Part shown: positions 10,495 to 21,496 of the stretch, one piece after another
How positions within the stretch are numbered: position 1 is the stretch's first letter
Layout of the letters: each line of letters opens with the position of its first letter
NCBI GenBank assembly: GCA_017559445.1
Contig: JAFYSJ010000009.1
Location: forward strand, 1-42,327
Direction: 5' to 3'
Source of the DNA: Clostridia bacterium
Lineage (GTDB): Bacteria; Bacillota; Clostridia; RGIG7378
Length of the DNA: 42,327 bases
The notes under the pieces: model-generated
Told to the model about the DNA's origin: nothing
Seen by the model: the letters and a program-made list of their open reading frames with translations, nothing else
Database searches by the model: none
Made by a program: the position numbers and the translations under genes

Positions 10495-11475
10495 CTATTT
10501 ATTAGCTTCTAAATTCTTAATAAGAAACTCCCTGTACTGTTCCAAAACACTCTCTGGTCCCAAAATTCTGGCCATACCTCCAAAGGATGCCACCCAACCA
10601 AAGAACTGGTCACACACAGCCACCCTCTCTGTCCACTTAAAGCTGTGACCATCTATATCCACAGGAGTGTAATTCTTGCCAAACCTGTCGAACACTGCAC
10701 TAACTAAGCTGTTATCAAAGGCCATGGCCACGTCATACTCCTGCCCGTCAAACATGTTGAAGTGTCTATTGCGATACTCCGTCTTGTTCTCCTTGGTACT
10801 GTCGGAAACTGTAGCCTCAATATTCTCCACCTTAGTTTGCTCCATACGATCAACTCTAAAGTGCTTCTTTTTGTTTTCCTTTTCGTCCCATGCTACCAAG
10901 TAATAGAAATCATCTAACAACAAAAGCATTGGAGTTACCAAATACCTAGCACCGTCATGCAAATGCTCCTTATATCCATTTTTGTTGTACTTAAAATAGG
11001 CAAAGGATAACTGCTTTCCACCCTCAATAGCCTGCTCTATGGCATCTATTGTGATAAAAATTTTCTCGTTATTTGAAATGTTCTGTGCAGGAACATAAAG
11101 AGATCTCTTCAAACTCTTGGAATCATAATCACTGCAAAGATTACCAAGCTTTTGTATTATGCTGTCCGCCTTTTTCTCCGTCAAATACTTGGATGCTTTA
11201 ACAGAGTCTGCCAAAATCTTAAGCTCAATCAAGTCAAAATCTCTACTTGCCACACGATATTTAGTCTCTGCGCCTTCTTTTTGCTTAACAAGGTCCATCT
11301 CATCCTGCAAAAGGAACAAGTCGTTGTATATGCTCTTGCGCTCAGCCTGAATGTCGCGAGTAGCCAAATGGGCAATAATATCCTGTACAGTTACGCCATG
11401 TTCGTCGTCTGTTCTCTTCTCTAAGAATTCCTTAATGTATAACAGCTTTAACTTTTGTTTTTCAGACTTTGCCAT
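10495..11475 (-). CDS. WYL-domain transcriptional regulator
   Basis: A 326-residue DeoR/YafY-like regulator. A winged HTH lies in residues 1-75 (KLKLLYIKEFLEKRTDDEHG, then HLATRDIQAERKSIYNDL). The WYL domain follows from about 130 to 225, with the characteristic LSFAYFKY, RYLVTPMLLLLDDFYYLVAWDE and KKHFRVDRMEQ; a WCX-type C-terminal domain ends the protein. The domain senses nucleic-acid or nucleotide ligands in studied members. An open frame extends 38 codons upstream, but those codons are translated repeat array (SRKQSLLVIA-like) and the ATG at 11475 has AAGGA upstream and starts MAKSEKQKLKLLYI, as family members do. Its target is unknown. Confidence 0.92.
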   Translation of the reverse strand: MAKSEKQKLKLLYIKEFLEKRTDDEHGVTVQDIIAHLATRDIQAERKSIYNDLFLLQDEMDLVKQKEGAETKYRVASRDFDLIELKILADSVKASKYLTEKKADSIIQKLGNLCSDYDSKSLKRSLYVPAQNISNNEKIFITIDAIEQAIEGGKQLSFAYFKYNKNGYKEHLHDGARYLVTPMLLLLDDFYYLVAWDEKENKKKHFRVDRMEQTKVENIEATVSDSTKENKTEYRNRHFNMFDGQEYDVAMAFDNSLVSAVFDRFGKNYTPVDIDGHSFKWTERVAVCDQFFGWVASFGGMARILGPESVLEQYREFLIKNLEANK

Positions 11476-11500
11476 GTTTTTTCCTTTCTTTTCACTCAAA

Positions 11501-11891
11501 CTAGCAACGAAGTTGCGGCCTACTAGCGCGTCAGCGCGGTTCACTGGCAACGCAGTTGCGATTACTAGCAAGCTTTGCTTGCGGCTCACTAGCCGAAGGC
11601 GGCCACTAGCACCAACGGTGCGATTACTAGCAAGCTTTGCTTGCGGCCTACTAGCCGAAGGCGGCCTACTAGCGCGTCAGCGCGGCCACTAGCGTAGCGG
11701 TTCACTAGCAACGCAGTTGCGATTACTAGCAAGCTTTGCTTGCGGCCTACTAGCGCGTCAGCGCGGCCACTAGCGTAGCGGTTCACTAGCACCAACGGTG
11801 CGATTACTAGCAAGCTTTGCTTGCGGCTCACTAGCCGAAGGCGGCCACTAGCGCGTCAGCGCGGCCACTAACGAGCTTTGCTCGTAGTTCA
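11501..11891. repeat. Array of 19 miniature CTAG-headed hairpin units
   Basis: Nineteen tandem units of 16-24 bp begin at 11501, 11523, 11544, 11565, 11589, 11606, 11627, 11651, 11669, 11689, 11705, 11726, 11750, 11770, 11786, 11807, 11831, 11848 and 11868. Each is (A)CTAG followed by a small inverted repeat and a short linker (GGCC, GGCCT, GGTTC, GGCTC or GATT) ending in A. The stems fall into seven families: GCAAC/GTTGC (3 units), GCGC/GCGC (4), GCAAGC/GCTTGC (4), GCCG/CGGC (3), GCACC/GGTGC (2), GCG/CGC-like short (2) and ACGAGC/GCTCGT (1). Unit 3 reads CTGG and unit 19 CTAA at the head. Blocks recur: units 9-12 and 13-16 have the same order except for one stem family. The last unit ends on the EamA stop codon. 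It contains open frames but no ribosome site or protein-like composition. Confidence 0.9.
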
Positions 11892-12746
11892 CTTGCTCAT
11901 GCTTAGTTTCGCCGTCGCTCCAATTACAAGTACAACGCCAATGCCACTCATCAATGTCATAGGTTCCCTTTGAACCAGCACTGACACGAGAACAGCTACT
12001 ACAGGATCAATATAACTCAAAATAGCCACAGTATGTGCTTTCAAATTTGGAATGCTACCAAAATACATCAAATATGCCACACCTGTATGCAAAACTCCTG
12101 CCACCAACAGAAGCACAAACTCCTTACCTGTTGGCAAAATGGATGGGAGCTTTTCCACCCACAACACATATGGAAGCATTGCCACTGCAGACACTGCCAA
12201 TTGCATCATGGTCCTGTCCATTGGTGCAATATTTTTAATGCGCCTATTAAGCAACACAATTGTTGCGTACATACATGCTGCAACAAGTCCAAACACAACG
12301 CCTGTTAAATCAGCTCCACCCTCCTGGAAAACTCCAGATACAAGGAGCATACCTCCCAAAGCCACAAGCGTTAAGACATACTGAATCTTGGTCATTCTTT
12401 CCTTATATATAAATGTAGATACAAGGATTACTATAACTGGAGCCATGTAATAGCACATGGTGGCCACGGAAATTGATGTGTGGTTGTAAGCCTCAAAGAG
12501 ACATGCCCAGTTTGCGCCAAGCAAAACACCTGACACAATGAGCAAACCTAAGTTTTGCTTAATGCCAGCACGGTCGATTTTCCTGCCCGTGGCAAGAGAT
12601 ACCAGACCAAGGAACAAGGCGCCCACAGTTCCCCTTACCAAAGCAATAAGGCCAGAACCCTGAGACAAATGTTTGCGCACTAAACCAATGGTGCCAAAGA
12701 TACCCATTGATCCTATTTGCTTTAACAAGTCCTTGTTTTTCTTCAT
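11889..12746 (-). CDS. EamA/DMT-superfamily transporter
   Basis: A 285-residue inner-membrane permease with ten hydrophobic helices arranged as two EamA repeats (first ending near GGMLLVSGVF, second near VVLVIGATAKLS). Members export or import small metabolites such as amino acids, sugars and cofactors; the substrate cannot be told here. Conserved features include the first-repeat segment ANWACLFEAYNHTSISVATMCYYMAPV and the second-repeat LSYIDPVVAVLVS. The start at 12746 (MKKNKDLLKQIG) has AGGAG eleven bases upstream; a longer frame reaching 12806 adds a non-conserved stretch. The stop codon TGA lies inside the last unit of the hairpin array, so that array would form the 3' end of its mRNA. 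An ECF-transporter S component lies upstream on the same strand. Confidence 0.9.
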   Translation of the reverse strand: MKKNKDLLKQIGSMGIFGTIGLVRKHLSQGSGLIALVRGTVGALFLGLVSLATGRKIDRAGIKQNLGLLIVSGVLLGANWACLFEAYNHTSISVATMCYYMAPVIVILVSTFIYKERMTKIQYVLTLVALGGMLLVSGVFQEGGADLTGVVFGLVAACMYATIVLLNRRIKNIAPMDRTMMQLAVSAVAMLPYVLWVEKLPSILPTGKEFVLLLVAGVLHTGVAYLMYFGSIPNLKAHTVAILSYIDPVVAVLVSVLVQREPMTLMSGIGVVLVIGATAKLSMSK

Positions 12747-12849
12747 CTGCAACTTTTCTCCTAAAAAACATGGCCAAAACCCTTGATTTGCAAGGATTTC
12801 AGCCACATTAACTCTTTTGTCGTCTTATTTTAAACTGTCTGCTAATCCC

Positions 12850-16122: not shown

Positions 16123-17493
16123 TTACTCTCCAAGAGCTCTAGCAATAGCTACCATAATGGCGCACTCCATTCTCTTGCGGAACAACTTACATCCATTCTC
16201 GTATACGCCAGTTACGGAACCTGTTGCATGGTATGCGTTAGCTGCGCAACCGCCTGAGCAATAAAGTCTAGCCCAGCAATCGTGGCACTCAGGGTGAGCA
16301 TATACATTGCATGCTGCAAACTCAGCCTGAATCTCTGTGTTAGTAACGCCATCCCAAATGTTACCGAGCTTGAACTTCTCCTCGCCTACGAACTGGTGAC
16401 ATGGGTACAAATCTCCCCAAGGTGTAACAGCCATATACTCTGTACCGCTGCCACAACCAGAAATACGCTTGTAAATACAAGGGCCTCCTGTAAGGTCAAT
16501 CATGTAGTGGTAGAAAGTAAATGGTCTACCCTCCTTGTCTCTCTCAAGCATGAGCTTAGCCAAATCCTCGTACTGTCCCATAACTACAGCCAAGTCCTCT
16601 TCTGTAAGCTCGGATGGATCTCCTGCTGCACAAACTACAGGCTCCATGCTAAGCTCTGTGAAACCAAGATCAAGCATCTGCTGAATATCCTTAAGGAAAT
16701 CAGGATTGGCGTGGGTGAATGTACCACGCATGTAGTAATCCTTGCCGCCTCTTGCCTCAACAAACTTCTGGAACTTGGGAACAATCTTCTCCCAGCTACC
16801 GTTGCCTGCATAGTCTACACGGAAACGATCGTGAATCTCCTTACGACCATCGAGACTGAGAACAACATTACTGCACTCCTTATTTGCCCACTCAATAACA
16901 TCGTCGGCTACCAAAACGCCGATTGTTGTCAAAGTGAAACGGAAGTTCTTGCCCTTTTCTTTCTCAATGCTACGTGCGTAAGCAACCAAGTCCTTAACAA
17001 CCTGGAAATTCATAAGAGGCTCGCCACCAAAGAAGTCAACCTCGAGGTTACGTCTAGTGCCGGAGTTCTCAATGAGGAAATCGAGAGCCTGCTTACCAAC
17101 CTCGTAGCTCATAATTGCGCGCTCACCATGGTACTTACCCTGGCTAGCAAAGCAATAAGAACAATTAAGGTTACATGTATGTGCGATGTGCAAGCAAAGA
17201 GCCTTAACAACTCCTGCTGTCTTCTGCTTAAGCTTACCTGCCATGGGGGCAAATGTATCTGGAGCAAAGAGCTTACCTGCATCCTTAAGTCCCTGTACCT
17301 GCTCGTAGCAAGCATCGAGCTCAGTCTTGTCCACCTCGGGATATGACTTAGCAACTGCATCAAGCACAGTCTCCTTAGTATTGTCCTCAAACATGGCAAT
17401 GATGTCATATGCAATGGAATCTACTACGTGTACAGAACCAGAACATACGTCCAATACAATATTGAATCCGCCTAATTTATATTGATGTATCAT
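16123..17493 (-). CDS. scfB: SCIFF peptide maturase, radical SAM/SPASM protein
   Basis: A 456-residue radical S-adenosylmethionine enzyme that builds Cys-to-threonine-type thioether (sactipeptide/ranthipeptide) links in the SCIFF precursor. An N-terminal peptide-recognition domain spans about residues 1-85 (IHQYKLGGFNIVLDVCSGSV). The 4Fe-4S-binding CxxxCxxC is C107-x3-C111-x2-C114 (HTCNLNCSYCFA), with the conserved ERAIMSYEVG after it. The SPASM region near 340-440 has CGSGTEYMAVTPWGDLYPCHQ, HPECHDCWARLYCSGGCAA and a late cysteine in YENGCKLF, enough for two auxiliary clusters. The ATG follows AAAAGGAGAG. The SCIFF gene lies just upstream with a terminator between them. Confidence 0.96.
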   Translation of the reverse strand: MIHQYKLGGFNIVLDVCSGSVHVVDSIAYDIIAMFEDNTKETVLDAVAKSYPEVDKTELDACYEQVQGLKDAGKLFAPDTFAPMAGKLKQKTAGVVKALCLHIAHTCNLNCSYCFASQGKYHGERAIMSYEVGKQALDFLIENSGTRRNLEVDFFGGEPLMNFQVVKDLVAYARSIEKEKGKNFRFTLTTIGVLVADDVIEWANKECSNVVLSLDGRKEIHDRFRVDYAGNGSWEKIVPKFQKFVEARGGKDYYMRGTFTHANPDFLKDIQQMLDLGFTELSMEPVVCAAGDPSELTEEDLAVVMGQYEDLAKLMLERDKEGRPFTFYHYMIDLTGGPCIYKRISGCGSGTEYMAVTPWGDLYPCHQFVGEEKFKLGNIWDGVTNTEIQAEFAACNVYAHPECHDCWARLYCSGGCAANAYHATGSVTGVYENGCKLFRKRMECAIMVAIARALGE

Positions 17494-17558: not shown

Positions 17559-17711
17559 TTACTTGCTCTCTACAGTATTCTCACACTGCTGATTTGCAAT
17601 GCCACAGCTTGTCTTGCAAGCAGACTGGCAAGATGTCTGGCACTCACCGCAGCCACCGTTCTTAGCGCTGTCACACAAGTTACGTGTCTCAATAGTCTTA
17701 ATATGCTCCAT
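17559..17711 (-). CDS. scfA: SCIFF (six cysteines in forty-five) ribosomal peptide precursor
   Basis: A 50-residue precursor starting MEHIKTIETRNLCDSAKNG. The core carries the family pattern CGEC-x3-C-x3-C-x3-C-x6-C with cysteines at 21, 24, 28, 32, 36 and 43 (CQTSCQSACKTSCGIANQQC). A seventh cysteine at residue 13 in the leader part is unusual, and the leader is a little shorter than in the members I know. It is too short for standard gene callers. AGAGGGTG precedes the ATG and a near-consensus promoter lies 37 bases further up. The product is modified by the adjacent radical SAM protein; its biological role in Clostridia is not settled (redox/quorum roles have been proposed). Confidence 0.95.
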   Translation of the reverse strand: MEHIKTIETRNLCDSAKNGGCGECQTSCQSACKTSCGIANQQCENTVESK

Positions 17712-19306: not shown

Positions 19307-21496
19307 ATGAAAATTAAGGTTTTCACACTATTAGTTTGCCTTTCTTTGGCCTTAACAGGCTGTTCTAAACCTGGACCTGGTCCTAATTCCCCCAATGGCC
19401 CCTCTACTACACCAACTATTCCAAGCACAAACACAGATCTTGGTGGTGATAACATGAGCTTTGGTGAGTCTTTAGATAAACTTGGCGCATACGCAGGTTA
19501 TTTCGAAGAGAATGTTCAGAATGTAACTATTACCCACGTATCTGGCACCAAAAAGGCATACGCTATTGAAGGTAGCACCATCACTTTTAGCGAAGTTTCC
19601 GAGGACACAACCTACTCTATTTCTGGTAAGTTCAGAGGCAATATTGTTATTAACGCTGGTGACAACCACAAGCTTAATTTGGAGCTTAACGGATTGACTT
19701 TAGTTTGCAGTACAACTAACCCTATTTTGATTAACAGTGGTCTAGAGGTTGTAATCACTGCCAAAAAAGACACTACTAGCTACATCTACGACACTCGTTC
19801 TGCAGTGGATTCCAACGACAGCACTCTTTACTCTGGCGCTATTCACTCCAATGTGGACCTTGAGTTAGATGGCAAGGGCACTTTGATCATCGTTTCAGAG
19901 AACAACAACGGTGTGCACACCAAGGACGATCTTCAGGTTAGAAACCTTAATCTTTTGGTAGCATGTGTAGACAATGCACTTAAGGGTAACGATAGCGTTG
20001 AGATAACAGCAGGCACAACAACTCTCATTTCCACAGGTGGTGACGGCATTAAGACAACTAATAGCCACATTTCCACTAAGGAAAATCAAAAAGGCACTGT
20101 TACCATTTCAGGTGGTTACCACACAATCTACGCTGCTTGTGATGGTATTGACGCAGCATATGACGTAGTTGTTGACGATGCCTCTACTGTGCTTAACATT
20201 TTCACAGATAAGTACTCTAACTACTCTGGTGAGATTACAGATAACTCCTCCTCTGAGTACCGCATTATGTTTACTGGTTCTGCATTCTCCTACTCCATCA
20301 AGTATTACAACTCAGATACTGATTTCCAGTGGGTAAATGCCACATACGACACAATGCAGACTGGCGGATGGACAACTTACTTCTACTACACATTCCCTAA
20401 GCTGACTCAGTACAGCAAGATGCAGGTTTACATGTATTCTAATGGTCAGACACAGGGACAGGATGGTTCATACTATGCATGCTCCGAACTCATGGAGCTT
20501 AACACTGCATACGACACAATTTCCATTACCTCTAAAAATGCCAACGTAAGCTTTAGCTGGACTAATTACACCACAACTCCTCAGAACAATAACGGAGGCT
20601 GGGGTGGTGGCCCTGGCGGCATGGGAGGACCTGGTGGTATGGGTGGTCCCGGAGGCATGGGCGGACCCGGTGGCATGGGCGGTCCTGGTGGCGGTGGAAA
20701 TACCGAAAAGGGTGACCATTCTACTAAGGGAATCAAGGCTGCTAACCAAATTACCATTAACAACGGTATTATTAGCATTAAGTCCTACGATGACAGCATC
20801 CACGCCAATAACGATACTGCTCTCCAGAACAGCACTTCCCCATTGGGCAACGTAACAATTAATGGTGGCAGCATCTCCCTCTACAGTAACGACGATGGTA
20901 TTCACGGAGATAACAAGGTTACTATTTCCGGTGGAGTTGTGACTATTTCCCACAGTTACGAAGGCATCGAAGGCGCACAGGTTGCAATAGATGGTGGCAA
21001 CGTTTCTATCGCAGCTTCCGACGATGGCATCAACGGAACTGGGAACTCTGGCACAACAATCGCAATTAACGGTGGACAGCTTTACATTTTCTGTAATGGT
21101 GACGGAATTGACTCCAACAGCCGTCAGTCATACAAGAGCATTACATTCTCTGGTGGTAACACTGTAATTATCTCCACTTCTGGTGGTAACTCCAGCATCG
21201 ATGCAGAGGGAGGTTACAGCTATACTGGTGGATCTGTAGTTGCCATGTGCCCACAGGGAGGCATGTCCAATGAATCCACTAAGGGACAGAATTTCCAGAG
21301 CTATGGAACAACTGCTAAATTGTCCCTTAACACAGGTAGTTACTTAGTTGTAAAAATGGGAGACCAAACAGTTACAATCCAAATGCCAACTTCACTGTCT
21401 GCATTAGTTGTTATGTTAGGTGACAAGAATGCTAGTGCTAAGACAGTTAACTCCGCAGACGCAACACTTGACAGCAACGGAGTTGCCTGGAATTAA
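19307..21496 (+). CDS. Cthe_2159-like beta-helix lipoprotein (carbohydrate/Ca2+-binding domain)
   Basis: A 729-residue secreted lipoprotein. The signal peptide MKIKVFTLLVCLSLALTGCS has lipobox LTGC (lipidation at Cys19), followed by a Pro/Asn/Thr linker. The mature part consists of short repeats typical of a right-handed beta-helix (GxxTISGGYHTIYAACDGIDA, NGGSISLYSNDDGIHGDNK) with many D-G-I turns, the pattern of the Cthe_2159 family, whose founding member is a Ca2+-containing polysaccharide-binding protein. Two such blocks flank a GGPGGM repeat at residues 434-463. Many Asp/Asn turns suggest calcium binding. It is 20 bp after DUF4956, so all three are one operon that ends in a terminator. 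Confidence 0.87.
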   Translation: MKIKVFTLLVCLSLALTGCSKPGPGPNSPNGPSTTPTIPSTNTDLGGDNMSFGESLDKLGAYAGYFEENVQNVTITHVSGTKKAYAIEGSTITFSEVSEDTTYSISGKFRGNIVINAGDNHKLNLELNGLTLVCSTTNPILINSGLEVVITAKKDTTSYIYDTRSAVDSNDSTLYSGAIHSNVDLELDGKGTLIIVSENNNGVHTKDDLQVRNLNLLVACVDNALKGNDSVEITAGTTTLISTGGDGIKTTNSHISTKENQKGTVTISGGYHTIYAACDGIDAAYDVVVDDASTVLNIFTDKYSNYSGEITDNSSSEYRIMFTGSAFSYSIKYYNSDTDFQWVNATYDTMQTGGWTTYFYYTFPKLTQYSKMQVYMYSNGQTQGQDGSYYACSELMELNTAYDTISITSKNANVSFSWTNYTTTPQNNNGGWGGGPGGMGGPGGMGGPGGMGGPGGMGGPGGGGNTEKGDHSTKGIKAANQITINNGIISIKSYDDSIHANNDTALQNSTSPLGNVTINGGSISLYSNDDGIHGDNKVTISGGVVTISHSYEGIEGAQVAIDGGNVSIAASDDGINGTGNSGTTIAINGGQLYIFCNGDGIDSNSRQSYKSITFSGGNTVIISTSGGNSSIDAEGGYSYTGGSVVAMCPQGGMSNESTKGQNFQSYGTTAKLSLNTGSYLVVKMGDQTVTIQMPTSLSALVVMLGDKNASAKTVNSADATLDSNGVAWN
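20606..20695 (+). repeat. In-frame 18-bp repeat encoding GGPGGM
   Basis: Four GGPGGM units plus one GGPGGG form a flexible linker between the two beta-helix blocks. The units differ at third codon positions (GGT/GGC/GGA/GGG mixing, CCT/CCC), so selection appears to act on the protein. Confidence 0.9.

Follow-up and report, generated by a model that had tools for sequence, protein, structure and literature searches.

The window, which is the whole 42,327-nucleotide stretch of DNA that was analysed, carries an array of 19 head-to-tail units (11500-11890, followed by a terminal ACT) between the genes for an EamA-family transporter and a WYL/WCX-domain regulator. The flanking genes are on the minus strand, and the order is EamA transporter, array, WYL regulator, S15 (rpsO), and PNPase, and an ECF transporter is also found in this neighbourhood. 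The features at the locus are the following.

10495 to 11475, minus strand: WYL/WCX-domain regulator gene; its ATG at 11475 follows the array after 24 nt (minus strand)
11482 to 11489, minus strand: AAAGGA ribosome-binding site of the WYL gene, between the array and the start codon
11500 to 11893, plus strand: array of 19 units (ACTAG/ACTAA, hairpin, linker) with ACT at its end
11668 to 11748, plus strand: four-unit block, copy 1 (GCGC, GC, GCAAC, and GCAAGC hairpins)
11749 to 11829, plus strand: four-unit block, copy 2 (GCACC hairpin in place of GCAAC)
11867 to 11893, plus strand: right-terminal unit (ACGAGC hairpin) with the terminal ACT
11889 to 12755, minus strand: gene for an EamA-family transporter, with its last codons at the array

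The TGA stop codon of the EamA gene (11891-11889) is made by the terminal linker of the array, and the C-terminus of the protein is about 4 residues shorter than in a congener (...IGATAKLSMSK* compared to ...IGATCAGELLGHRQD*). The WYL frame is open into the array, and the preliminary description had considered that frames within the array would add peptides to the WYL protein. This is unlikely because the normal ATG (11475-11473) and the AAAGGA just upstream of it come after the array, and therefore the open frame is probably not a coding extension. Neither a promoter-like nor a terminator-like site was found in the array or between EamA and WYL (11893-11475). A role as transcription roadblock, which had also been suggested, or as terminator is not borne out because there is no terminator-like site at the array and the orientation of arrays is unrelated to the coding strand. 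Elsewhere in the window, an 18-nt tandem repeat at 20606-20692 (plus strand) encodes PGGMGG repeats inside a 729-aa lipoprotein-like ORF (19307-21496), and 16123-17493 (minus strand) encodes a SCIFF peptide maturase (TIGR03974), which points to Clostridia; a short ORF nearby (17559-17711) may be the SCIFF peptide.

Each unit of the array consists of an ACTA(G) tag, a hairpin that follows it without any spacer, and a short linker (GGCTC, GGTTC, GGCCT, GATT, or GTAT, among others). The unit heads are at 11500, 11522, 11543 (variant ACTGGC), 11564, 11588, 11605, 11626, 11650, 11668, 11688, 11704, 11725, 11749, 11769, 11785, 11806, 11830, 11847, and 11867 (variant ACTAAC), and the hairpins fall into seven stem families (GCAAC, GCGC, GCAAGC, GCC, GCACC, GC, and ACGAGC). 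At 81 nt each, the two four-unit blocks share 94% identity, and GCACC takes the place of the GCAAC hairpin in the second copy. Tandem Repeats Finder also marks 11536-11853. When the perfect stems of the first 18 units were summed the total was 81 bp, compared to 17.5 +/- 5.0 bp (maximum 37 in 2000 shuffles) when each unit body was shuffled. The array of 19 hairpins on a common scaffold is thus real, and the units, the seven stem families, and the block duplication were all found again.

The window array is not unique in its genome, a MAG that is about 96% complete with 0.8% contamination in 40 contigs and that, together with one distant congener, forms the basis of the data. There were 57 arrays with 4-22 heads each (median 12) in 612 kb sampled from this genome, and they make up 2.3% of the sampled DNA; this sample was drawn around array-bearing regions and not at random, and it holds 435 matches to the pattern ACTAGC-N3-11-GCGRYY. 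In the whole genome this pattern has 583 matches compared to 4 for the reversed control, and BLAST of the same 1.68 Mb assembly gave 74 matching pieces. The genome-wide estimate is about 75 arrays with about 900 units, where genome totals rest on pattern counts and unit statistics on the 612 kb of stretches. About 10 stem families and their linkers are common to these roughly 75 unlinked loci. The 57 arrays contain 696 heads and inside them only 4 heads are in the opposite orientation, although some whole arrays stand back to back (L013). The G+C content of the arrays is 58% compared to 42% in the window. Five of the 57 arrays are at contig ends (L057 at the end of contig C13, L070, L075, L077, and L079); the arrays seem to break the assembly, and the unit orders at contig ends may be incomplete.

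The search of related genomes for tagged hairpins that had been proposed earlier was carried out, and it showed that arrays are absent from the congener, class, and phylum samples. The pattern had 0-1 matches in the congener and only 0-15 scattered matches in each of about 390 genomes of the same class, compared to 583 here; a strict two-unit pattern was found 287 times in this genome and not at all in 397 other genomes of the phylum sample. In 42 named Clostridia genomes there were merely scattered chance matches, and no arrays were found in the GTDB contig collection, which may leave out this genome. A phage or plasmid origin was considered and rejected: nothing in the phage and plasmid collections matched the arrays, and two pattern matches in viral contigs were unrelated coding repeats. 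No description of arrays of this kind in Clostridia was found in the open-access literature.

The earlier view that pairing rather than sequence is kept is supported by the whole set of units. A perfect hairpin directly follows ACTA in 558 of 614 units, compared to 189 +/- 11 after shuffling, and among distinct units the number is 191 of 224 compared to 64 +/- 7. Within families, departures from the consensus affect 0.38% of stem sites and 12.4% of loop sites, which is a 33-fold difference, but this contrast is partly built in as compensated variants are counted as other families; in either case broken stems are uncommon. Pairing in the 6-bp families extends to all 78 cells (100%), four of the six pairs are changed on both sides, and the covariation score was reached by none of 500 shuffles, while slid controls fail. 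The units are 15-24 nt long with stems of 2-6 bp and a GRYYC-type linker. The main stems all close with a C-G pair, and the triloops are GNA in 274 of 441. The smallest units are exactly GC-GNA-GC (GCGCAGC, GCGTAGC, and GCGAAGC). DNA mini-hairpins of the sequence d(GCGNAGC) are exceptionally stable; those are a DNA structure and not an element family, whereas here they are one member among about 10 hairpin families of a natural array. There is also an unusual class, GC-GA-xy-GNA-y'x'-GA-GC (GCGAGTGAAACGAGC, GCGAATGCAATGAGC, and GCGAACGAAGTGAGC), in which the inner pairs are kept and GA lies opposite GA; these GA/GA mismatches could form sheared pairs, which would be confined to the ACTA strand. 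With DNA parameters this strand was the more stable in 314 units and the less stable in 27 (419 weighted units), the energy difference being small, about 0.3 kcal/mol on average, whereas with RNA parameters the strand asymmetry was absent (166 versus 182).

All 57 arrays are intergenic, the single called overlap being an ORF that runs into its array. Their orientation is random relative to the local coding majority (25 versus 32, p = 0.43) and to the flanking genes (++ 17, -- 21). What is not random is which end of the array meets the end of a gene. The right end (...YACT(A)) is at most 32 nt from the stop codon of an ORF reading in for 26 of 57 arrays and the left end for 6 of 57 (p = 5e-5). 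The same polarity was obtained with called genes, 23 of 30 for the right end and 1 of 24 for the left (p = 4e-8), where the gene caller missed one left-end ORF at L060. At right ends that abut genes the stop codon is TAG in 12 of 23, compared to 19% of sampled called genes (p = 5e-4), and the alternative there is a TGA made by AG|TGARCC. At ruvC (the ruvC-ruvA names are by inspection and not by family search) the array replaces the last codons, so that the protein ends in ...MEGMLSKPMR* here and in ...MESMLK* in the congener, and the TAG is again derived from the array. A second gene, at L063, likewise terminates in array sequence. At L060 (6798-8428) the region between two arrays contains a 95-nt repeat in two copies and a 23S_rRNA_IVP (PF05635) gene that takes its TAG stop from the left end of an array. 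This four-helix-bundle type gene was considered as a marker or carrier of the arrays and was rejected as it is present in a single copy in both genomes.

Comparison of orthologous sites, which had been proposed for following gain and loss of units, gave a partial answer. In a 343 kb sample of the congener, with protein identities of 55-93%, five orthologous gene pairs that correspond to six arrays here, the window locus included, have no array at all. The gaps at these five pairs are 65-249 nt in the congener, between matched coding parts, and 312-1676 nt of intergenic DNA here. Whole arrays are therefore absent there, but the congener is too distant for exact empty-site breakpoints or target duplications to be read. 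That block duplication occurs is also seen from the order of units across the arrays. Words of 3, 4, and 5 units are repeated within arrays 57, 24, and 9 times compared to 20, 5.6, and 1.5 times in shuffles, words of 4 and 5 units are shared between arrays in excess over shuffles, and the mutual information of adjacent units is 0.40 compared to 0.18 +/- 0.02. The extreme case is L057, which is a plain alternation of two units. At several loci there is a nearly identical composite of about 240 nt made up of TTTAGTG heptamers, a core with further hairpins, and four fixed units; near-identical four-unit composites with a common 5' module are found at L046, L051, L054, L066, and L069.

Pairing that is kept, dispersal, near-strict head-to-tail order, intergenic location, absence from the congener, and polarity to gene 3' ends are directly supported. 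We consider it fairly probable that the array belongs to a dispersed family of non-autonomous palindromic repeats, specific to this lineage and REP/BIME-like, of which it is one copy, with unit insertion and its target as the inferred part. The unit would comprise an unpaired ACTA tag, a linker, and between them a mini-hairpin that is closed by C-G and whose loop, as read on the tagged strand, is mostly a GNA triloop. Such units may insert as folded single strands just 3' of a (T)AG/AGT trinucleotide, as read on the gene strand, and the TAG at the end of each unit would regenerate its own target and give rise to head-to-tail chains. Chain growth by reinsertion is suggested by the shared anatomy, the one-way placement at (T)AG, and the TAG that ends each unit. 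The units would later be reshuffled as slippage or recombination duplicates blocks and exchanges hairpins. In IS200/IS605 and REP systems a tetranucleotide at the foot of the hairpin guides cleavage in single-stranded DNA (PMC6006769). What may bear on targeting of this type here is the polar placement at 3' ends, the enrichment of TAG, and the ACT at the right end, which could belong to the element or to the target. The mobilising enzyme and the single-strand intermediate are presumed. As candidates for the mobiliser a Y1 transposase, a RAYT, and a reverse transcriptase were considered, and none was detected: there was no match to Y1_Tnp (PF01797) or RAYT (NF047646) in the genome at E <= 0.01, where a gene could have been missed since the MAG is about 96% complete, and no RVT_1 was found. 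Any function for the host is probably incidental: genes would gain new stop codons, C-termini would be slightly changed, and the 3' UTR between genes would become structured.

An explanation that has to be weighed against this is that the hairpins act in transcripts, as 3' UTR stabilisers, by stalling ribosomes near the stop codon, or as an attenuator between EamA and WYL, and that they are kept by selection. Arrays are indeed in 3' UTR or inter-cistronic positions, many of them no more than one unit away from a stop codon, ribosomes can be stalled by REPs that lie within 15 nt of the stop (PMC12306157), and the lack of a promoter or terminator between EamA and WYL is in keeping with it. Yet the orientation is random relative to flanking genes and coding majority, for 24 of 54 arrays no gene reads into the right end, folding energies have no RNA strand bias, and the congener orthologues manage without arrays, so that we regard selection for a function in RNA as unlikely. 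Expansion in place of a hairpin-prone tandem repeat, by slippage and recombination at many pre-existing loci and with no transposition, would account for the block duplications and hairpin exchange within arrays and for the simple alternation at L057. Some copying between loci is nevertheless needed because of the common families, the near-identical composites at five loci, the absence of any seed unit from orthologous congener loci, and the polarity of the insertion sites, and we hold expansion in place on its own to be quite improbable.

Since this is a single MAG in 40 contigs with 5 of 57 arrays at contig ends, some unit orders may be mis-assembled, but that the arrays as such are collapsed repeats or foreign contigs is very improbable: 52 arrays lie inside contigs and have unique coding sequence on either side, the flanking genes are syntenic with their congener orthologues, and contamination is low. 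It is harder still to believe that these are arrays of the CRISPR, integron attC, or satellite type. They are tandem, built of units, and have variable inserts, and there the likeness ends, as there is no constant repeat of CRISPR length, there are no unique spacers, and the variable part is self-complementary and comes from the families common to all loci. Sites of attC type are longer than 15-24 nt, and no cassette is present. A structured RNA family was also looked for and Rfam gave no match at the gathering threshold. None of the three, CRISPR, attC, or plain satellite, fits these arrays.

The dispersed, REP/BIME-like repeat that we prefer has partial counterparts among known systems. The preliminary description held that the array was unlike CRISPR, REP, or satellite arrays. 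This stands for CRISPR and satellites, and also for REPs as far as the tag, the strict head-to-tail order, and the lack of a detectable RAYT are concerned, but REPs have already been described as combining a tag with a hairpin, reaching high copy number, lying between genes at 3' ends, and providing TAG stops (PMC3733652). The traits of REPs found here are a short hairpin directly 3' of a tag, many intergenic copies, and stem sub-families with complementary changes. Like the GTAG REPs, SMAGs, and BIMEs (PMC3733652, PMC2817692, PMC6006769), the arrays have loops mostly of 2-5 nt, lie near gene 3' ends, give TAG stops from the tag termini, and form clusters with repeated blocks. They differ from GTAG REPs in that the tag is ACTA and not GT[AG]G at the hairpin foot, the stems are 2-6 bp compared to 5-13 bp, and the cognate RAYT (TnpA_REP, an HUH Y1 transposase) was not detected. 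Head-tail REP dimers are absent or rare whereas here there are near-strict head-to-tail arrays of up to 22 units, and in BIMEs the palindromes alternate whereas opposite heads are almost lacking inside arrays. The CGTC REPs (dRS3, RPE-4/6; PMC3733652) are likewise tagged palindromes without a dedicated transposase, but they have a CGTC tag, stems of 8-9 bp, and mostly head-head dimers with rare clusters. Because the tag, the stem length, the head-to-tail order, and the lack of a RAYT differ, we do not file this family in either the GTAG or the CGTC superfamily. No Clostridia REP family was found in the REP literature examined (PMC3733652, PMC2817692, PMC6006769). The GC clusters of yeast mitochondria (PMC4478555) likewise consist of short GC-rich hairpins that fuse and become shuffled, AG being the putative target duplication, with a dedicated enzyme that is not proven; they are mitochondrial and of unrelated sequence, stop-codon polarity is not described in the part of that source consulted, and the likeness is one of convergence.

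A more far-reaching possibility, which we put forward only tentatively and consider rather doubtful, is that these arrays represent a third superfamily of tagged bacterial palindromes (ACTA) that spreads without a RAYT by some single-strand-DNA route, each unit carrying its own TAG insertion target at one end, with the result that growth of the arrays starts at gene stop codons, proceeds head-to-tail, and rewrites C-termini. Known REPs come mainly from Proteobacteria, where they form head-head pairs and have RAYT enzymes, and a densely arrayed, head-to-tail analogue from Clostridia with another tag and without a visible enzyme would separate what is essential (tag and mini-hairpin) from what is incidental (RAYT and inverted pairing). 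With about 10 compensatory stems on one scaffold and loops that favour DNA mini-hairpins, the question whether selection is at the level of DNA or RNA becomes testable. The arrays also show short repeats repeatedly replacing stop codons and C-termini.

Often directly to the left of an array there is a second dispersed module, which consists of runs of TTTAGTG/TTTGGTG heptamers and a core (ATTACTTTGGAACGACCCAAAGTAAT...CCGCTACTTCCGAAGCGCGGG) with its own hairpins. It is found at L046, L049, L051, L058, L059, L063, L066, and L069. Pieces of this core are present in the congener with 88-92% identity (L163, L165, and L166). As judged from these sequences, the core is probably older than the arrays because its parts occur in the congener without ACTA arrays.
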